Positions 17,478-37,001 of a DNA stretch of 64,000 bases are shown in pieces. The first letter of the stretch is position 1, and every line of letters starts with the position of its first letter. The stretch lies in NCBI RefSeq assembly GCF_011068285.1, contig NZ_CP049616.1, positions 910,501 through 974,500 of the forward strand, given 5' to 3'. The notes below the pieces were generated by a model. The model did no database searches, was not told where the DNA came from, and saw only the letters and a program-made list of their open reading frames with translations. Origin of the DNA: Flagellimonas oceani (GTDB lineage: Bacteria; Bacteroidota; Bacteroidia; Flavobacteriales; Flavobacteriaceae). Position numbers and translations under genes: made by a program.

Positions 17478-18035
17478 ATGAATGAATTTATCGAATATAT
17501 TCTTCAGTTCGGCCATCTGAATGAGCAGCAAATCAAGTTGATCGAAGACAAGGCCAAGGAAATTGAAATTAAGAAGGACGATTATTTTGTAGAGGCAGGT
17601 AAGGTTTTGGAACAAGTCGGATTTATTTTTGACGGTATTCTTCGAATTTGCTATTATAACAACAAAGGCGAAGAAATCACAAAGATCTTTATTGAAGAAA
17701 ATCATTTGCTCTATAATTTGAAGAATGTGCCCTCAACGGAATACATTCAGGCGGCCACAGATGCAAAGCTGCTTGTGATTTCCAATGCGGATTGGAAGGA
17801 AATTTCAGATACGATCATCGGTTGGGAGCATATTATCCAGAAGATTACAAACAAATCACTGGCCAAAAAATTGGAACGGGTAAGCCCATTGATATCCCAG
17901 GATGCCACAACACGTTATTTGGAATTTATGGAGAAGTATCCCTTCTTGGTCAATCGCATCCCCCTGAAATATATCGCCTCTTATCTGGGAATCACCCAAC
18001 AATCCCTGAGCAGGATACGAAAGAATATTCGTTGA
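17478..18035 (+). CDS. Crp/Fnr-family transcriptional regulator
   Basis: This 185-residue protein has an N-terminal cyclic-nucleotide-binding-like barrel (about 20-115). Its C-terminal helix-turn-helix is YIASYLGITQQSLSRIRKNI (165-184). The barrel lacks the Arg-Ser pair of true cAMP binders, as in many Bacteroidota Crp/Fnr proteins whose ligand is unknown. It is followed by an SDR gene with the same operator-promoter block, so it most likely controls itself and that SDR. The protein is a little short for the family because the HTH domain has no extension. Confidence 0.88.
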   Translation: MNEFIEYILQFGHLNEQQIKLIEDKAKEIEIKKDDYFVEAGKVLEQVGFIFDGILRICYYNNKGEEITKIFIEENHLLYNLKNVPSTEYIQAATDAKLLVISNADWKEISDTIIGWEHIIQKITNKSLAKKLERVSPLISQDATTRYLEFMEKYPFLVNRIPLKYIASYLGITQQSLSRIRKNIR

Positions 18036-25001: not shown

Positions 25002-25283
25002 ATGGAAATACAAGTAATCGAATATGAATCCAAAGGGATGGCAGTGGCCCAAGATACCGGAAAAGGGGTGGGGTCCATGACCTTTTCCATAGCAGGTCCT
25101 GAATTGATCATCATAGACCATACAGATGTTGACCCGAAATATAGCGGTAAAGGGATAGGCAAGCAGTTGCTCTATAAAATTGTTGGGATGGCAAGAGAAA
25201 AAAGCATCAAGATTATTCCGTTGTGCCCTTTTGCTTCGGCAATGTTCAGAAAAATAGATGAGATCAAGGATGTATTAAAATAA
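25002..25283 (+). CDS. Small GNAT-family N-acetyltransferase (YidJ/NATD1-like)
   Basis: This 93-residue minimal GNAT protein has the acetyl-CoA loop DPKYSGKGIGKQLL (46-59) and the CPFASAMFRK end typical of the short NATD1-like group. It lies 11 bp after the porin stop and 9 bp before the YjdI-like gene. In many bacteria genes of this group accompany YjdI, which fits here. The acetyl acceptor is unknown. A longer paralogue is at 30703. Confidence 0.88.
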   Translation: MEIQVIEYESKGMAVAQDTGKGVGSMTFSIAGPELIIIDHTDVDPKYSGKGIGKQLLYKIVGMAREKSIKIIPLCPFASAMFRKIDEIKDVLK

Positions 25284-25292
25284 TCGAACACC

Positions 25293-25505
25293 ATGGAAAT
25301 AAGCAAAGAATATCAAAGGGAGGACCTGACCGTCATCTGGAAGCCCAAAAAATGTATACACGCGGGCATCTGTGTCAAGACCTTACCCAAGGTGTACGAC
25401 CCAAAGGCAAAACCCTGGATAACACCGGAAAATGCCTCGGCGGAGGCTCTAAAAAATCAAATCAATAATTGTCCTTCCGGAGCACTTAGCTTCCGGGAGT
25501 CGTAA
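25293..25505 (+). CDS. YjdI-like mono-cluster Fe-S protein
   Basis: This 70-residue protein has three cysteines in the YjdI/Fer4_19 pattern: KKCIHAGICVK, the PWITPE segment and NNCPSGALSF. It probably binds one iron-sulfur cluster and passes electrons, but its partner is not known. It is tightly packed between the small GNAT gene and the antiporter gene (11 bp). Confidence 0.88.
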   Translation: MEISKEYQREDLTVIWKPKKCIHAGICVKTLPKVYDPKAKPWITPENASAEALKNQINNCPSGALSFRES

Positions 25506-25516
25506 AAACAACTATC

Positions 25517-26698
25517 ATGGAACACCACATTCTTTTGAACATCTGTGCCATTTTTGGCGTTGCCACGGCTGTGGTCATTATATGCAGGTTCCTTAAGATC
25601 CGATATATCATAGGATATTTGATCACCGGAATATTGCTCAGTCCCAATACATCTAGTTTTTTCACCGATATGGAAGAGGTCGATGTGTATGCTGAGATCG
25701 GGGTCATCCTATTATTGTTTACCATCGGACTTGAATTCTCGTTCGATAAACTCAAAAAAATCAAGCATTATGTGCTCGGCGGGGGAAGTGCGCAAGTATT
25801 CTTTACAATCCTGCTTACCGCAGTGCTCATATGGCTGACCATGAGGCCCAGTTGGGAGGAAAGTATCTTTTGGGGGTTTCTCTATGCACTGAGCAGTACT
25901 GCCATTGTCATAAAAACATTGCAGGATACCAATAAAATAGTAACGCCCCATGGGAAATTCATTTTGGCTGTCTTGTTGTTCCAGGACATCATGATCGTAC
26001 CATTGATGCTGATGATCCCAATAATCGCTGGCGTCGGAGGGAATCCGTTGTCCGCTTTTGGATGGCTATTGGGCAAAGTGGTATTGATGGGCGGAATTGC
26101 CTATCTACTGGCCCGTTTTGTGATTCCCTATTTCCTGAAAAACGTCATGAAGATCCAAAGCCAGGAAGTGTTCTTGATCGCATTGATCTTTCTTGTTACT
26201 GGGATTGCACTGCTCACGGAGCAATTGGGTCTTTCACTTGCATTGGGTGCCTTTATCGCAGGTTTGATCATAGCGGAAACCAATTATGACCACATGGCGA
26301 TCACCTGTTTTTTACCCTTTCGGTATGTGTTCATGAGCTTCTTTTTTATCTCGATGGGCATGTTGCTCAACTATGAAATATTCCTGACCGATTTGGGATG
26401 GATCGTATTTTGGACCTTGTTCGCCTTTGCGGTAAAGGCCGTAGCCGGAATCTTGGCGGTAAAGGTGCTGGGGCTGGAATGGAAAACGGCCCTTGCTGTC
26501 GGATTTTCGATTGCGCAGATCGGTGAGTTTTCCTTTGTCCTGGCACAGAGTGGATTGCAATACGAATTGATCAGTCCCAACAATTACCAGATATTTTTGG
26601 CGGTATCCATCATCCTGATGTCCGTGACCCCTTTTATAGTTACTAATGCAGAAAAGATACATCCCACCCTACAAAAAATGATGATTAAAAATGGATAA
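25517..26698 (+). CDS. CPA2-family cation/proton antiporter (KefB-like membrane domain)
   Basis: This 393-residue integral membrane protein has about 12-13 hydrophobic segments of the CPA2 Na+/H+ exchanger fold. Typical pieces are IIGYLITGILLSP, IGVILLLFTIGLEFS, STAIVIKTL, LFQDIMIVPLML and FSIAQIGEFSFVL. The RCK/TrkA-N domain present in full KefB/KefC is absent, so the protein ends with the membrane part. The stop overlaps the glutaredoxin-like start by 8 bases (ATGGATAA), which suggests coupled translation. K+/H+ exchange under electrophile stress, as with KefB, is an inference. Confidence 0.9.
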   Translation: MEHHILLNICAIFGVATAVVIICRFLKIRYIIGYLITGILLSPNTSSFFTDMEEVDVYAEIGVILLLFTIGLEFSFDKLKKIKHYVLGGGSAQVFFTILLTAVLIWLTMRPSWEESIFWGFLYALSSTAIVIKTLQDTNKIVTPHGKFILAVLLFQDIMIVPLMLMIPIIAGVGGNPLSAFGWLLGKVVLMGGIAYLLARFVIPYFLKNVMKIQSQEVFLIALIFLVTGIALLTEQLGLSLALGAFIAGLIIAETNYDHMAITCFLPFRYVFMSFFFISMGMLLNYEIFLTDLGWIVFWTLFAFAVKAVAGILAVKVLGLEWKTALAVGFSIAQIGEFSFVLAQSGLQYELISPNNYQIFLAVSIILMSVTPFIVTNAEKIHPTLQKMMIKNG

Positions 26699-26948
26699 GC
26701 CAGAACTACAATTATATGGGACCGATTGGTGTCCCAAATCAGCTGCCATTCGCAATTATTTGCAGGGCAAATGGATAGCATTTGAAGATTTTAACGTGGA
26801 GACGGATGCCGTGGCAGAACTAAAGATACGGTCGCTATATGATGGGGTCCTCAAGTTTCCCACAGTAATGGCAGGGAATGATTTTATCAAAAACCCGAGT
26901 GTACCGGAACTCAACGCTTTTTTGCGGAAGCACAACATCGATAGCTGA
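26691..26948 (+). CDS. Mini-glutaredoxin with CPKS active site
   Basis: This 85-residue glutaredoxin/thioredoxin-fold protein has the motif YGTDWCPKS (C14-P-K-S17), a cis-Pro loop KFPTVMAG, and the C-terminal motif KNPSVPELNAFL. A single active-site Cys suggests a monothiol mechanism. Its start overlaps the antiporter stop by 8 bases. Its closest relative in the window is the central domain of the flavoenzyme at 26988, which has the same layout but no Cys. Confidence 0.87.
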   Translation: MDKPELQLYGTDWCPKSAAIRNYLQGKWIAFEDFNVETDAVAELKIRSLYDGVLKFPTVMAGNDFIKNPSVPELNAFLRKHNIDS

Positions 26949-26987
26949 TGATAAGAATAAAACACATTAATACTAAAATACAATACT

Positions 26988-28631
26988 ATGATGACCGACC
27001 CTAGATTTCCCATATTGACACAAAAACAAATCACTACCCTTAAGGCGTATGGTGATATCATCAATTTTGAAAGCGAAACGGTACTTTTCCAGGTAGGCGA
27101 TCGGGACTATGATTTTTACATCGTACTCGAGGGTCAGGTAGCCATTAAGGATACCCATGATCGTGATAAAGTACTCGTGACCCATGAGGTCAATGAATTT
27201 ACGGGCGACAACAGTATGCTCTCCAGTAGAAGGATACCCTTTAGTGGTCATGCTTTAGAGGGAAGTTCTGTCCTACGGATCAAACCAGAGGTTTTAAAGG
27301 AAATCATATCCAAGCACAGTGGCATAGGGGAAATACTTCTAAGTGCATTTCTCCTAAGGCAGGAAGTCATGTTGAAGGAGTACGTCGGGGGTATCAAGAT
27401 CATTGGATCTGAAAAGTCCAAGGACACCTATGCCCTGCGTGATTTTATGGAAAAGAACCATATATGGCATTCCTTTCTCAATATCGATGCGTCCGAGGAA
27501 GCCAAAGAATTATTGAACAGTTTTAATCTTGATTTGGAAGAACTCCCCATACTTATCAATATGTCCGGGGAACTATATAAAAATCCCAGCCTTGCCGAAC
27601 TGGCACGATTGACGGGGGTACTTATGGATTTTGGGGACGACATCTATGATGTGTTGGTGGTCGGGGCAGGGCCGTCTGGTTTGGCGGCCAGTGTTTATGC
27701 CGCTTCAGAGGGCTTGTCCGTAGTGACCATTGATGGCAATGCCCCAGGGGGACAGGCAGGTAAAAGTTCAAAAATTGAAAACTATCTCGGTTTTCCTTCA
27801 GGGATTTCAGGGAACGATCTTGCCAATAAGGCCTATCTCCAAGCACAAAAATTTGGATGTAACATTTCCATACCCCACAAAGCGGAACAGGTGGAGTACA
27901 ATGGACAGTATTTCACGTTGAGTGCCTCCAACAACAAGAAGATCAAGGCAAGGTCGATTATTGCTGCCACTGGGGCCGAGTATAGAAGATTGCCCATCGA
28001 GAACATCGAAAGGTTTGAGGGCAGTGGCGTATTCTACTCCGCTACGGGAATGAACGCATCGGCCTGTAAAAATGAACTGGTCGGTGTAGTGGGCGGTGGG
28101 AACTCAGCAGGCCAGGCAGCCTTGTTCTTGGCGGACCATGCCGCTGAGGTACATGTGATTATCCGCGGGGATGACCTCGGGTCCAAAATGAGCGATTATT
28201 TGGTGCAGCGTATTTACTCCGCACCCAATATCATTGTCCATAAAAACAGCAATGTGGTCCAACTCAACGGAGAGCACCATTTACAATCCCTGGTACTGGA
28301 GTCAGAAGGGGAAACCCAGACCATTGGGATTTCCAACCTGTTCACCTTCATTGGCGCAAGACCCTGCAGCGATTGGCTGAACCAGATCGTGGCCATGGAT
28401 GATAAGGGGTTTGTCTATACCGGTCCCGATGTTTTGGAATCCGCCATGATCAAATGCTCCATATACGATCAACGCAAACCACAGTCATTGGAAGCAAGCA
28501 TACCAGGATTCTTTGCGGTCGGGGATGTGAGGAAAGGTTCCGTGAAAAGAGTCGCCTCCGCAGTGGGGGAAGGTTCCATGGCCATAAGCCAGATTCACCA
28601 GTATTTGGCCGATCTGAAAGTACATATCTAA
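26988..28631 (+). CDS. Flavoenzyme: cNMP-binding + Cys-less glutaredoxin-like + TrxR-like domains
   Basis: This 547-residue protein has three parts. Residues about 16-130 form a cyclic-nucleotide-binding-type barrel. Residues about 136-212 resemble the neighbouring mini-glutaredoxin, but the CPxS site is SKDT (144-147). Residues about 220-545 are a thioredoxin-reductase-like FAD/NAD(P)H domain, with VVGAGPSG (224-231), GGQAGKSSKIENYLGFP, VGVVGGGNSAGQAA and FAVGDVR. The redox CxxC of true thioredoxin reductase is missing; only C360 lies near its place. It may be a ligand-gated NAD(P)H oxidoreductase for the neighbouring glutaredoxin. Such fusions occur elsewhere with UBP zinc-finger neighbours. 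Confidence 0.88.
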   Translation: MMTDPRFPILTQKQITTLKAYGDIINFESETVLFQVGDRDYDFYIVLEGQVAIKDTHDRDKVLVTHEVNEFTGDNSMLSSRRIPFSGHALEGSSVLRIKPEVLKEIISKHSGIGEILLSAFLLRQEVMLKEYVGGIKIIGSEKSKDTYALRDFMEKNHIWHSFLNIDASEEAKELLNSFNLDLEELPILINMSGELYKNPSLAELARLTGVLMDFGDDIYDVLVVGAGPSGLAASVYAASEGLSVVTIDGNAPGGQAGKSSKIENYLGFPSGISGNDLANKAYLQAQKFGCNISIPHKAEQVEYNGQYFTLSASNNKKIKARSIIAATGAEYRRLPIENIERFEGSGVFYSATGMNASACKNELVGVVGGGNSAGQAALFLADHAAEVHVIIRGDDLGSKMSDYLVQRIYSAPNIIVHKNSNVVQLNGEHHLQSLVLESEGETQTIGISNLFTFIGARPCSDWLNQIVAMDDKGFVYTGPDVLESAMIKCSIYDQRKPQSLEASIPGFFAVGDVRKGSVKRVASAVGEGSMAISQIHQYLADLKVHI

Positions 28632-28643
28632 GATTAGGGTATT

Positions 28644-28934
28644 ATGAAGAATGTAGAAGAATATTGCGGGCATTTGGACCGGGAAGATTTTAAGACAACC
28701 CGTAAAAAGGTATGTGAGGCTTGTGTGGAGACCGGGGGCAAATGGAACCATTTGCGACTTTGTCAAACCTGCGGAGCCGTGCTGTGCTGCAATGCTTCCC
28801 CGAACCAGCATGCACAAAAACATTTTGAGGAAACCGGTCACCCCGTGGTCACCTCGATTTTGCCCAAACCTTGGTCCAGGTTTGCCTGGTGCTATGTGGA
28901 CCAGGTCAAACGGCCCTTAAGGCAAATAGATTAA
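28644..28934 (+). CDS. UBP-type zinc-finger protein
   Basis: This 96-residue protein is almost entirely a zf-UBP domain. Candidate zinc ligands include C8, H10, C24, C27, C40, C43, C48, H56, H60 and H66, in the order of the ubiquitin-protease zinc finger. In eukaryotes this domain binds the C-terminal Gly-Gly of ubiquitin; in bacteria its role is unknown, but it often accompanies a cNMP/TrxR-like flavoenzyme, as here (12 bp downstream). The tail KRPLRQID is basic. Confidence 0.9.
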   Translation: MKNVEEYCGHLDREDFKTTRKKVCEACVETGGKWNHLRLCQTCGAVLCCNASPNQHAQKHFEETGHPVVTSILPKPWSRFAWCYVDQVKRPLRQID

Positions 28935-30213: not shown

Positions 30214-30687
30214 ATGAAGGAAATAAACAAGATTGGACTAAATACCGAAAAAAGCAATGAATTGGCCAATTTACTGAATGATCTCTTGGCCGAGTATTCC
30301 GTATTCTATCAGAATGTCAGAGGCTATCATTGGAACATTCAGGGGGACAAGTTTTTTGAGCTCCATTCAAAGTTTGAGGAGTTGTACAATGACCTTTTCC
30401 ATAAAATTGATGAAGTGGCCGAACGCATATTGACCCTTGGTTTTGCCCCGAATTATACGTTCACCTCCTATTTGAAAACGGCAAAAATCAAAGAAAGCGA
30501 CCAAAGCACTGACGGACCTAGTTCCGTGCAGGAAATCATAGCATCGCTTCAAATCCTTTTATCCAAACAACGCATCTTATTGGATAAATCCGGAGCATTG
30601 AACGATGCAGGTACCAATGCTTTGATGAACGATTATATCAGTGAGCAGGAAAAGCTGATTTGGATGTATTCCGCTTATCTAAAATAA
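30214..30687 (+). CDS. dps: Dps-family ferritin-like DNA-protection protein
   Basis: This 157-residue four-helix protein has the Dps inter-subunit ferroxidase residues at the spacing of Listeria Dps: H39 and H51 (YHWN... ELHSKFEEL), D66 and E70 (HKIDEVAERI). Dps dodecamers oxidise Fe(II) with peroxide, store iron and protect DNA. It opens a group of stress genes (GNAT, OsmC, SRPBCC). The 150 bp upstream of it, after the terminator, should contain its promoter, but no clear TAnnTTTG box is seen. Confidence 0.94.
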   Translation: MKEINKIGLNTEKSNELANLLNDLLAEYSVFYQNVRGYHWNIQGDKFFELHSKFEELYNDLFHKIDEVAERILTLGFAPNYTFTSYLKTAKIKESDQSTDGPSSVQEIIASLQILLSKQRILLDKSGALNDAGTNALMNDYISEQEKLIWMYSAYLK

Positions 30688-30702
30688 TAGAGAATAAACA
30701 GG

Positions 30703-31029
30703 TTGATGAAAACTGAATATGAATATAAGGATATACCGCTGGTCAAAAACGAAGAAAAAAGACGTTTTGAAATAGCAATTGAGGGCCGATATGCATTCAC
30801 CAATTATGGGGAATTTGGCAACCAAATTGCCTTGGTACATACGGAGACCGACCCGGAGATATCTGGGCAGGGTGCGGCCAGTGCACTTATCGAGAAGACC
30901 TTGCGGTATTTGGAAGAGAAGCAAATTGAATTACTGCCCTTCTGTCCGTTTGTATTTGCCTATATACGAAGGCACCCGGAGTGGAAGCGCATCGTAAGTA
31001 AAAAATTCAAGGGCTATGACAAACTTTAG
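30703..31029 (+). CDS. Small GNAT-family N-acetyltransferase
   Basis: This 108-residue GNAT protein of the NATD1/YidJ-like kind has the cofactor loop DPEISGQGAASALIEKTLRYLE and the CPFVFAYIRRHPEWK end. It is 15 bp after the Dps stop, so it is co-transcribed with it. The acetylated target is unknown. It resembles the shorter protein at 25002 in its whole layout. Confidence 0.88.
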   Translation: MMKTEYEYKDIPLVKNEEKRRFEIAIEGRYAFTNYGEFGNQIALVHTETDPEISGQGAASALIEKTLRYLEEKQIELLPFCPFVFAYIRRHPEWKRIVSKKFKGYDKL

Positions 31030-31060
31030 CCAAAATCAATAACCATATATCTGAAAGCAT

Positions 31061-31453
31061 ATGAAAACAAGTGTTGCCACCATCGGGAAACAAAAATATA
31101 AGACGGAGATCCAAGCGGGAAACCACATTGTCATCGCCGATGAACCGGAGGATGTGGGTGGAGGAAATTTGGGGTTTACTCCCACAGAACTTCTTGAATC
31201 CTCATTGGCGTCCTGTACGGCGATGACCCTACGAATGTATGCGGACAGGAAAGGATGGGATTTGGAAAAGGTAGAGATCAAGGTCGGTTTTAAAAGGAAC
31301 ATGGCCACAGGTGAGGTGACCTTTATGAAAGAAATCCAACTGTTCGGAAACCTACAACCCGAAGAACGTGAACGATTGTTGGAGATGGGGTCAAAATGTC
31401 CCATTGAAAAAATGATTACGGGAACTATCTCGGTAACCTCTTATTTGAAATAA
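31061..31453 (+). CDS. OsmC/Ohr-family protein
   Basis: This 130-residue protein has the two redox cysteines C52 (SSLASCTAMTLRMYA) and C113 (SKCPIEKMI). Its length and the GFTPTELLESSLASC segment fit the short OsmC-like (YhfA-type) subgroup that reduces organic hydroperoxides. It differs clearly from the OsmC at 5961. It lies 31 bp after the GNAT gene in the Dps group. Confidence 0.92.
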   Translation: MKTSVATIGKQKYKTEIQAGNHIVIADEPEDVGGGNLGFTPTELLESSLASCTAMTLRMYADRKGWDLEKVEIKVGFKRNMATGEVTFMKEIQLFGNLQPEERERLLEMGSKCPIEKMITGTISVTSYLK

Positions 31454-34728: not shown

Positions 34729-35805
34729 TTGGAGTTGTTCCCGACGAAGATAAGGCCGGTTGAATCGGTGGATTATAAATTAGTGAAACCAAAAATTAGG
34801 ATAAAATTGGATTTAAACGGAAGCAGTACGCTAGTGTCAGGAGTTCAAAGGGAGACCTTTGTACGCTTTAAGGAGGATGTGCTGAAGGGGTTGTCTTCTT
34901 CTCCCAAAAATTTGCACCCGAAATATTTTTATGATGAAAAAGGTTCTGCCTTGTTCAGGGAGATCATGGTGCTTCCCGAATACTATTTGACGGGCTGTGA
35001 GCTGGACATTTTTAAGAATAAAACCGATGAGCTCGGCAAGATGGTCGCTATGGACGGAACACCCTTCGATTTGATCGAACTGGGTGCAGGTGACGGGTTC
35101 AAGTCAACTCATTTACTACGGCACCTTTACCAAGAAAACACAAATTTCAACTATATGCCCATAGATATTTCGGGTACTATTCTTGATATTCTGGGCGGTT
35201 CCTTGCAATCGGAATTCCCAGATTTGGAAGTACAACGCTTTGAGGGGGAATATATGGAAATGTTGGCAGAGGCCTGTTCCCGTTCCAACAATCGAAAAGT
35301 GGTTCTTTTTTTGGGTGCCAATATCGGGAATATGGAACCGGATGAATGCAAGGGCTTTTGTGCTCAATTGCAAAGCTTGCTCTCTCCGGGCGATATGGTG
35401 CTGATCGGGTTCGACCTCAAAAAAGATCCAAAACAGGTATTGAATGCCTACAATGATGCATCAGGGGTGACCTCGAAATTCAATTTGAACCTTTTGGAAC
35501 GCATCAATCGGGAACTGATGGCCGATTTTGATTTGGACCAATTCGAACATTATCCATCCTATGATCCCATCAGTGGGGCATGTAAGAGCTTTTTGGTCAG
35601 TTTACGGAAACAAGAAGTGCGCATCGATGGACATACCATCGGATTTGATAAAAATGAAGTTATCTGTACGGAGATATCCCAAAAGTACGACCTAACGGAA
35701 ATCCAAAACCTTGCCGAGCAGACCGGATTCCATCTCTACGGAATGATCCATGATTCCAAGAAGTGGTTTGTGGATGCGGTCTGGCAAATCAAAAAAGAAA
35801 TGTAA
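34729..35805 (+). CDS. egtD: L-histidine N-alpha-methyltransferase (EgtD)
   Basis: This SAM-dependent enzyme trimethylates histidine to hercynine, the first step of ergothioneine synthesis. Segments match EgtD: SSPKNLHPKYFYDEKGSALF, LPEYYLTGCELDI, LIELGAGDGFKSTHLLRHL and VVLFLGANIGNM. The domain itself begins around residue 35. No ATG exists in frame before it; the frame is closed at 34711, so translation must start at TTG 34729, GTG 34783 or another rare codon. The length (358 from TTG) is about 35 residues above mycobacterial EgtD. EgtB follows 11 bp downstream. Confidence 0.9.
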   Translation: MELFPTKIRPVESVDYKLVKPKIRIKLDLNGSSTLVSGVQRETFVRFKEDVLKGLSSSPKNLHPKYFYDEKGSALFREIMVLPEYYLTGCELDIFKNKTDELGKMVAMDGTPFDLIELGAGDGFKSTHLLRHLYQENTNFNYMPIDISGTILDILGGSLQSEFPDLEVQRFEGEYMEMLAEACSRSNNRKVVLFLGANIGNMEPDECKGFCAQLQSLLSPGDMVLIGFDLKKDPKQVLNAYNDASGVTSKFNLNLLERINRELMADFDLDQFEHYPSYDPISGACKSFLVSLRKQEVRIDGHTIGFDKNEVICTEISQKYDLTEIQNLAEQTGFHLYGMIHDSKKWFVDAVWQIKKEM

Positions 35806-35816
35806 AGGAATACGCT

Positions 35817-37001
35817 ATGAACACATTGCCAAGAGAAAAAGTTCGGGAAGAACGAATGGTGGAACGCTATGTACGAGTTAGAAAACAAACAGAGGCCATA
35901 TGTGCCCCATTGGAAACGGAGGATTATGTGGTGCAGCCCATTGGGGACGTGAGTCCCCCGAAATGGCATTTGGGACATACGACCTGGTTTTTTGAAACCT
36001 TTGTCCTGCTTCCCAACTTGGTCGGGTACAAGGAATTTGACCCCAACTTTAATTATGTGTTCAACAGCTATTACGAAACCTTGGGGGCACGTGTGATCCG
36101 AACGGATAGGGGAAATATGAGCCGACCTACGGTATCCGAAGTGTTTCGTTACCGACACTACGTGGACGAGCATATCGATCTACTGCTCGGGAAATCGGAC
36201 ATTTCCAAGGAACTGTGCGATATTCTGGAATTGGGCCTACAGCATGAACAGCAACACCAGGAACTTTTGTATATGGACATCAAATATATCTTGGGGCACA
36301 ACCCCCTGTTTCCTGCCTATTCCCATGAGTCAATTTTTGATGAACCACAGATTGAACGGGAAACGCCCATTGCTTTTTCGGAAGGCGCCTGTTGGATAGG
36401 GCATAAGGGTAAAGGCTTTTGTTTCGACAATGAAAAGGGAAGACATTTGGTGTATCTGGATGCTTTTGAGATTGCTCCGCAACCAGTCAGCAATGGCGCG
36501 TATATGGAGTTTATGGAAGATGGTGGATATTCCGATTTCAGGTTTTGGCACGCATCGGGTTGGGATTGGGTGAACAAGAACCAGATCAAGGCGCCCTTGT
36601 ATTGGCATTGGATAGATGGACAATGGATGAAATATGGTTTCAAGGGCCTTGAGGATATTGATGCCAATGAAGCAGTTTGCCATATCAGCTATTATGAAGC
36701 AGCCGCATTTGCTGCATGGAAAGGAAAAAGATTGCCCACCGAAATGGAGTGGGAGTTGGCTTCCAATCAAATAAAATGGGGACATCGATGGGAATGGACG
36801 GAAAGTGCCTATCTGCCCTATCCCAAGTTCAAAAAGGCAAAGGGGGCCATAGGGGAATATAATGGGAAGTTCATGGTCGATCAAATGGTCTTGCGAGGGG
36901 CGTCGGTGGCAACACCCAAAGGACATAGTCGCAGGACGTACAGGAATTTTTTCCAGACCGATCGAAGATGGCAATTTTCAGGTGTGCGATTGGCACAATA
37001 A
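35817..37001 (+). CDS. egtB: Ergothioneine sulfoxide synthase EgtB
   Basis: I start at the ATG at 35817, 11 bp after the egtD stop; the in-frame extension upstream overlaps egtD. The 394-residue protein has an N-terminal DinB-like domain with iron ligands H51 (PKWHLGHTTWFFE), H143 and H147 (HEQQHQE), matching EgtB numbering. Its C-terminal formylglycine-generating-enzyme-type domain contains CHISYYEAAAFAAWKGKRLPTEMEWE and NFFQTDRRWQFSGVRLA. It joins a thiol donor (gamma-glutamylcysteine or cysteine) to hercynine with oxygen. Genes for EgtA, EgtC or EgtE are not next to it. Confidence 0.93.
   Translation: MNTLPREKVREERMVERYVRVRKQTEAICAPLETEDYVVQPIGDVSPPKWHLGHTTWFFETFVLLPNLVGYKEFDPNFNYVFNSYYETLGARVIRTDRGNMSRPTVSEVFRYRHYVDEHIDLLLGKSDISKELCDILELGLQHEQQHQELLYMDIKYILGHNPLFPAYSHESIFDEPQIERETPIAFSEGACWIGHKGKGFCFDNEKGRHLVYLDAFEIAPQPVSNGAYMEFMEDGGYSDFRFWHASGWDWVNKNQIKAPLYWHWIDGQWMKYGFKGLEDIDANEAVCHISYYEAAAFAAWKGKRLPTEMEWELASNQIKWGHRWEWTESAYLPYPKFKKAKGAIGEYNGKFMVDQMVLRGASVATPKGHSRRTYRNFFQTDRRWQFSGVRLAQ

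Follow-up and report, generated by a model that had tools for sequence, protein, structure and literature searches.

The described systems closest to the locus considered here include the glutathione-gated K+ efflux systems KefC-KefF and KefB-KefG of Escherichia coli. In KefC, the RCK domains together with AMP and glutathione keep the antiporter closed (PMC11150392, PMC10224563; here and below, excerpts of the articles are cited), and its K+ site comprises S125, T127, Q155 and D156 with K307 close by (PMC11150392). KefF is an oxidoreductase required for full Kef activity, and its gene usually shares a few bases with that of the antiporter (PMC10224563). In a stretch of 64,000 nucleotides from Flagellimonas oceani, the whole of which we call the window, a row of six genes on the + strand encodes a CPA2 antiporter with the membrane core of KefC together with a mini-glutaredoxin, a flavoprotein of the thioredoxin reductase (TrxR) fold and a UBP-type zinc finger. 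Since the corresponding components are fused or paired in other bacteria, these four proteins probably act jointly as a stress-triggered ion-exchange system. More specifically, we tentatively regard the cluster as a stress-tolerance unit around a KefC-like K+/H+ antiporter, with control shifted off the antiporter itself, and put the chance of this being correct at slightly below even.

The antiporter (25517..26698, +; 393 amino acids (aa)) has PF00999 (Na_H_Exchanger, 1e-57) as its sole Pfam match and contains no RCK/KTN domain. Its closest solved relative is KefC (8bxg, E 1.6e-45, residues 1-377), with the Na+/H+ antiporter 4bwz far behind (E 3.3e-12), i.e. the Kef-like membrane part without RCK that an earlier, sequence-based description of this DNA (the original prediction) had proposed is indeed present, and the chain ends at the point where the RCK of KefC would start. 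In the alignment to KefC S126, T128, Q156, D157 and K307 take the positions of the K+ site, and these residues are kept in 5/5 antiporters of the window type, in 20/20 of the fusion type and in 19/19 of the type found in a Bacteroidota family labelled f24 (both discussed below). The pair Gln156-Asp157, the KefC-type 'QD' ion-site motif, is encoded at 25982..25987 (+). Thus, the locus shares with the E. coli systems the KefC membrane domain and K+-site residues (PMC11150392) as well as an oxidoreductase gene in the operon and a gene overlap of a few bases (PMC10224563). Unlike in these systems, the antiporter lacks RCK/KTN and therefore an AMP/glutathione site, the flavoprotein is TrxR-like and carries a cyclic nucleotide-binding (cNMP) and a pseudo-glutaredoxin domain, and a glutaredoxin and a UBP finger are present in addition. 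No quinone-reductase-like subunit of the KefF/KefG type was found among the scanned genes around the antiporter. RCK domains do exist elsewhere in the genome, where PF02254 matches seven open reading frames (ORFs; six places above the cut-off in five of them), one being another CPA2-RCK antiporter of 608 aa with 30% identity to the window antiporter, but none of these matches lies within the window. One of the others may still be an RCK protein belonging to this antiporter, which would contradict the original prediction. An RCK-less CPA2 antiporter with a separate regulator is also represented by KhtTU of Bacillus subtilis, whose regulatory subunit is of the TrkA_C type and not a flavoprotein.

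The gene for the mini-glutaredoxin (26691..26948, +; 85 aa; PF00462, 1e-8) overlaps the end of the antiporter gene with its first 8 bases. Its product has the active-site stretch Y-G-T-D-W-C-P-K-S, in which, by sequence and alignment, Cys14 (26730..26732, +) is the sole Cys of the protein; the CxxC of a dithiol glutaredoxin or mycoredoxin is absent (W-C-P-K-S), and TIGR02200 reaches 40.9 bits against a cut-off of 89.5. A domain of the same type is located behind CPA2-RCK in ten database proteins, the query counted. Stand-alone and fused glutaredoxins share signatures around the Cys, 'G-x-L-K-F-P' and 'K-N-P', and the two sets match at 99.6% in hhalign. As a glutaredoxin of the same kind sits behind CPA2-RCK elsewhere, the overlap of antiporter and glutaredoxin genes looks like a split form of this fusion from which the RCK is gone. 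Moreover, at both mapped CPA2-RCK-glutaredoxin loci (L194 and L271) the flavoprotein adjoins or lies one gene off, in L271 on the opposite strand.

A second type of fusion concerns the UBP finger (28644..28934, +; 96 aa; PF02148 (zf-UBP), 1.9e-11), for which the original prediction had seen no bacterial partner. This claim falls, the partners being Kef-type antiporters, to which the finger is fused, and the flavoprotein as a neighbour. In a metagenome-assembled genome of Dadabacteria, CPA2, RCK and UBP form one chain and the flavoprotein gene adjoins on the opposite strand. A search with the UBP part of this chain returned 659 long proteins, and PF00999 and PF02148 were both present in 112/120 among the matches listed. 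Ten antiporter-UBP fusion loci were mapped, and in five of them (L106, L188, L189, L190 and L304, the last from Acidobacteriota) the flavoprotein adjoins or is one gene away. These fusion systems, with a flavoprotein carrying a receiver (REC) domain and with a cNMP kinase, share with the window the antiporter, the glutaredoxin, the UBP finger, the flavoprotein and the cNMP domain; in the window, however, all parts are split, RCK and kinase are missing, and the cNMP domain is located on the flavoprotein. Among the open-licence PMC papers listed in our searches, none dealt with CPA2-RCK-UBP or CPA2-RCK-glutaredoxin fusion systems, and none linked a UBP finger of bacteria to an antiporter or to the flavoprotein, in line with the view that the coupled system is undescribed. 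The solved structure closest to the UBP finger is 2ida (E 9.8e-21), titled a hypothetical protein, which we take to be bacterial. The Cys/His set of zf-UBP, Trp34 and the pair Cys83-Tyr84 are kept in 13 aligned bacterial fingers, all 13 of which have C-C-[DN] at the position of C-G-R in HDAC6 and USP49. The Arg of the C-G-R motif holds the C-terminus of ubiquitin, and since it is replaced in the bacterial fingers, binding of the ubiquitin type appears unlikely.

The association extends beyond fusions. For the surveyed genomes, phylum and family labels were derived from the window's named relatives and from L118 (G555) itself; presence of the flavoprotein was called at E 1e-70 and that of UBP above its cut-off, and neighbourhoods were counted within 6.5 kb. 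Of 395 evenly drawn Bacteroidota genomes, 36 contain UBP, 53 the flavoprotein and 33 both (Fisher p 8.6e-31, kinship ignored), this co-occurrence spanning ten families; for 247 Acidobacteriota genomes the corresponding numbers are 54, 45 and 37 (p 3.6e-23, kinship ignored). That UBP is always accompanied by the flavoprotein was ruled out, as 17/54 Acidobacteriota genomes with UBP lack a flavoprotein match at this threshold, at least one of these misses being due to a short flavoprotein (L316 in G768). Outside the window 52/53 Bacteroidota flavoprotein matches were mapped (G347 (L232) was omitted as its ORF was not retained in the map); a CPA2 antiporter is present near 22/52, on the flavoprotein's strand in 21 of these 22, and UBP near 23/52. 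By family, the 22 loci, counted besides the window's, fall into f24 (17), f30 (2), f42, f45 and f54 (1 each). The f24 layout comprises CPA2-RCK, in most loci a DsbA-like thioredoxin, UBP, a cNMP kinase and a REC-flavoprotein. In L185, L186, L187 and their kin the protein between CPA2-RCK and UBP is a 174-aa DsbA/Thioredoxin_4 protein, i.e. a thioredoxin-fold partner in a position that resembles that of the window glutaredoxin. As a control, the regions (7.5-13 kb) around 20 UBP genes unlinked to the flavoprotein contained CPA2 in 0/20 cases. In the CPA2 tree the window type, the UBP/glutaredoxin fusion type and the f24 type separate, the latter being 24-29% identical to the window antiporter; two or three antiporter lineages have therefore taken up the same partners. 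For adjacency of antiporter and flavoenzyme in other genomes, which the original prediction requires, the outcome is thus mixed, with 22 of the 52 mapped Bacteroidota loci but only 6 of 80 loci of the window's own cNMP type having CPA2 within 6.5 kb. UBP is near in 33 of these 80, and in 46 cNMP-type genomes without an adjoining UBP it is found elsewhere in 14.

The flavoprotein itself (26988..28631, +; 547 aa; Pyr_redox_2 and cNMP_binding) is composed of three parts. Residues 26-110 (27063..27317, +) form the cNMP-binding domain (PF00027, 9.8e-12, 45.1 bits versus a cut-off of 27.5). They are followed by a pseudo-glutaredoxin domain (residues 131-215; 27378..27632, +), which is not called by Pfam and was found by profile-profile comparison (hhalign, 97.6% to the stand-alone glutaredoxin set). 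Here Ser144 takes the position of the active Cys of the stand-alone protein; across 140 aligned rows residue 144 is Ser in 126 and Cys in 4. The third part (residues 219-543; 27642..28616, +) is a TrxR-like FAD/NADPH module, the fold with its FAD and NAD(P) domains being present according to Pfam and structure model matches. In the alignment S-A-T-G (351-354; 28038..28049, +) stands at the C-x-x-C position of TrxR. Classification as a thioredoxin reductase was rejected because C-x-x-C is missing in 140/140 aligned rows, so that of the predicted cNMP-glutaredoxin-TrxR enzyme the domains stand, whereas TrxR denotes a fold and probably not the activity. The best NCBIfam match, TIGR01292, likewise remains below its cut-off (224.9 versus 343.45 bits). 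The structure model is based on a deeper alignment (predicted local distance difference test (pLDDT) 88.5) and replaced one from a shallow alignment of close kin (pLDDT 64); structure matches, FNR chains among them, span residues 215-545, and for the N-terminal domains the support comes from Pfam and hhalign. A TrxR fold without CxxC is also found in the low-Mr flavoproteins TrxR-like FNR and YpdA, to which window-type flavoproteins add an N-terminal cNMP or REC domain and the pseudo-glutaredoxin. Cys360 (28065..28067, +) is the single conserved Cys in the alignment, kept in 88/89 cNMP-type rows (85/86 in a smaller alignment of this type) and in 24/47 REC-type rows; invariance throughout the family was thus ruled out, the residue being near-invariant in the cNMP type only. 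A cNMP-domain histidine kinase is located within 6.5 kb of 43/46 REC-type flavoproteins. For the window's genome a full kinase of this kind was ruled out, as the 18 matches consist of the kinase part or short stretches and have no cNMP part. Hence, the cNMP input sits on the flavoprotein in the window and mostly on a nearby histidine kinase in REC-type loci. The window also encodes a stand-alone Crp-like cNMP-domain protein (17478-18035), slightly below the Pfam cut-off (25.3 versus 27.5 bits).

The flavoprotein's company elsewhere brings in a rather improbable alternative, namely that there are two modules. The flavoprotein and UBP finger would form a pair for redox/proteostasis signalling in general, with numerous alternative effectors, and the antiporter plus glutaredoxin would be one such effector or client; the glutaredoxin would keep the antiporter's thiols reduced, and the antiporter would not be a gated partner. 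Nine plasmid flavoprotein loci were inspected, four of which contain UBP: those of Rhodococcus and Streptomyces with TrxA-ClpB, that of Rhizobium with UBP alone, and that of Paraburkholderia with a Clp ATPase, Hsp20, HdeD and PsiE. In the stretches seen, for which the gene table is incomplete, no UBP was found at the plasmid loci of Microvirga, Sphingomonas, Caballeronia, Gloeothece and Cupriavidus, and no antiporter at any of the nine. The Rhodococcus and Streptomyces plasmids (L119 and L120) carry rows of DnaJ-CbpM-ClpB-TrxA-UBP-flavoprotein, which suggest a tie of the flavoprotein to protein disaggregation. The two-module arrangement is further favoured by the antiporter-free stretches of the four UBP-bearing records, by the absence of CPA2 within 6.5 kb in 74/80 cNMP-type loci and by the lack of CxxC in all 140 rows, which makes it unlikely that electrons are relayed to the glutaredoxin in the manner of a TrxR. 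It does not account for the repeated placement of the flavoprotein beside different CPA2 lineages, and UBP-antiporter fusions in genomes without a flavoprotein match imply that UBP is tied to the antiporter first. At a Deinococcus antiporter locus there is no flavoprotein nearby.

The four genes discussed so far are preceded by those of a small GNAT (Acetyltransf_CG, 93 aa; 25002..25283, +; PF14542, 9.3e-20) and a YjdI-like divergent 4Fe-4S mono-cluster protein (Fer4_19, 70 aa; 25293..25505, +; PF06902, 1.4e-24). All six proteins score above their Pfam gathering cut-offs, and the spacings are, in order, 9, 11, -8 (the overlap), 39 and 12 bases, so that the predicted head-to-tail row with gaps of 9-40 bp and an 8-base overlap, as well as its families, proved correct. 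The compact row is not a closed block, since the same-strand run extends both ways across gaps of 11 bases (to an alginate-export-like porin upstream) and 30 bases (to an alpha/beta hydrolase downstream) and continues with YceI, amidohydrolase, Dps-like ferritin, second GNAT, OsmC, EgtD and EgtB genes. The six genes therefore form the central part of an extended cluster of stress-type genes. All six recur in the same order in Algoriphagus, Flagellimonas amoyensis, Croceitalea and Sinomicrobium (L039, L040, L041 and L050; the YjdI ORF of L041 is present in one gene map and was dropped from two later ones), which makes the arrangement more than chance. Their antiporters are 83-91% identical to that of the window.

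These flanks also suit the somewhat unlikely explanation of a mobile stress-tolerance island whose genes are expressed together but whose products each act independently and without physical coupling. Its members would be YceI, porin, GNAT, YjdI, antiporter, glutaredoxin, flavoprotein, UBP, hydrolases, Dps, OsmC and EgtD/EgtB. Apart from the long same-strand run of stress-type genes, the full-length flavoprotein is sporadic in the window's family (3/120 genomes) and the block is shared with Algoriphagus, a member of another family, at the high antiporter identity given above, so that transfer as an island fits; related UBP-flavoprotein pairs, too, are found in the ClpB/TrxA and Clp ATPase/Hsp20/HdeD/PsiE clusters. 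The fusion of UBP and glutaredoxin onto the antiporter polypeptide elsewhere speaks against mere co-residence. So does the co-occurrence of UBP and flavoprotein genes without linkage, which is seen in 10 of the 33 genomes of Bacteroidota that have both.

Several side observations concern the neighbouring genes. GNAT, YjdI and flavoprotein adjoin without an antiporter in L042, L044 and L045, and in L274 a GNAT and an ORF matching both OsmC and YjdI lie beside a pair of cNMP kinase and REC-flavoprotein. On the 3' side of the block (30214-31453) the window encodes the Dps-like ferritin, the second small GNAT, which belongs to the same family as the first, and the OsmC protein. EgtD and EgtB (34729-36998) both exceed their NCBIfam cut-offs; genes of this type were detected near the flavoprotein in L040, L050, L110 and L118 (by phmmer only), and in L193 EgtD/EgtB (above the cut-offs) directly adjoin UBP, flavoprotein and kinase. 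This proximity makes a link to ergothioneine-type thiols possible. Scans for promoters (30 sites versus 34.1 in shuffles) and terminators (29 versus 19.9, sd 5.0, with no + strand site between the six genes) were not used as evidence.

The reading of the cluster as a stress-tolerance unit around the antiporter has to be weighed against a number of findings. The coupling idea of the original prediction is supported, as a functional association of the parts, by fusion, adjacency and co-occurrence in other bacteria, but the window's own arrangement is rare: the full six-gene order occurs in 4/80 cNMP-type loci, all from close relatives, and a window-type antiporter (E 1e-90) in 2/395 Bacteroidota genomes, the window's own and G185, where it carries an RCK. 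The other half of the ten fusion loci (L191, L300, L301, L303 and L317, the last with a stop inside) does not have the flavoprotein at hand, and at E 1e-70 the flavoprotein search gave no match in four genomes with an antiporter-UBP fusion (G204, G707, G715 and G731). Conversely, UBP was not found in 20 of the 53 Bacteroidota genomes with the flavoprotein, and in the plasmid records the two accompany ClpB/TrxA or Clp ATPase/Hsp20 in a stretch free of antiporters. At the residue level, Cys360 is gone in 23/47 REC-type rows, and 83/139 internal glutaredoxin domains contain a Cys somewhere, seldom at the active position. Finally, in the transmissible locus of stress tolerance (tLST), a stress island in which the genes of a Kef antiporter and a thioredoxin are neighbours (PMC8407380, PMC8290217), deletion of this thioredoxin gene left lipid oxidation unchanged (PMC8407380). 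The tLST resembles the window in its antiporter with a thioredoxin-type neighbour within a stress island and differs in that a flavoprotein or UBP is not named in the excerpts of these articles (PMC8407380, PMC8290217). As chlorine resistance falls on deletion of its kefB (PMC8407380), the comparison suggests oxidant stress as the trigger.

The proposed interplay of the parts, including complex formation, ligand, electron path and gating direction, is inferred as follows. By analogy with KefF for KefC, the flavoprotein may be an ancillary subunit of the antiporter. NADPH would reduce it, and its own cNMP domain would bias it, a role that at other loci would fall to a cNMP-domain histidine kinase via the receiver domain of the flavoprotein. 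The pseudo-glutaredoxin may mark a docking partner, and the glutaredoxin (Cys14) and the UBP finger may bridge flavoprotein and antiporter. An oxidant or electrophile load would then alter the contact between glutaredoxin and flavoprotein and switch on K+ efflux and H+ entry, which would acidify the cytoplasm and protect thiols. The genome encodes BshC (bacillithiol), and the glutamate-cysteine ligase families PF04262 and PF04107 have no match in it, other routes to glutathione not having been searched for; Kef-style gating by glutathione therefore appears unlikely in this organism. In an apparently glutathione-less, bacillithiol-type bacterium, glutaredoxin and flavoprotein may stand in for glutathione as sensor. 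Flavoprotein with cNMP input, glutaredoxin and UBP finger would thus constitute a regulatory head, as RCK, glutathione and KefF do in E. coli, which by analogy appears to be the most economical interpretation. That the system represents a new class of accessory-gated K+/H+ antiporter, in which a disulfide-less TrxR-fold flavoprotein with a glutaredoxin-like domain lacking the active Cys is the gate, is controlled by a cNMP messenger or a cNMP-kinase/REC phosphorelay and engages via glutaredoxin and UBP, is conceivable, but we consider it doubtful.

Bacterial UBP fingers thereby gain a concrete partner, and a family of flavoproteins that is widespread and frequently annotated as 'cyclic nucleotide-binding domain-containing thioredoxin-disulfide reductase', although CxxC is missing in the rows examined, is linked to ion homeostasis. 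The locus offers a testable answer to the question of how glutathione-less bacteria could switch a Kef-like antiporter, with the natural fusions serving as ready constructs. If true, the proposed mechanism would assign a first job to bacterial UBP fingers and provide bacillithiol bacteria with a redox sensor that substitutes for glutathione.

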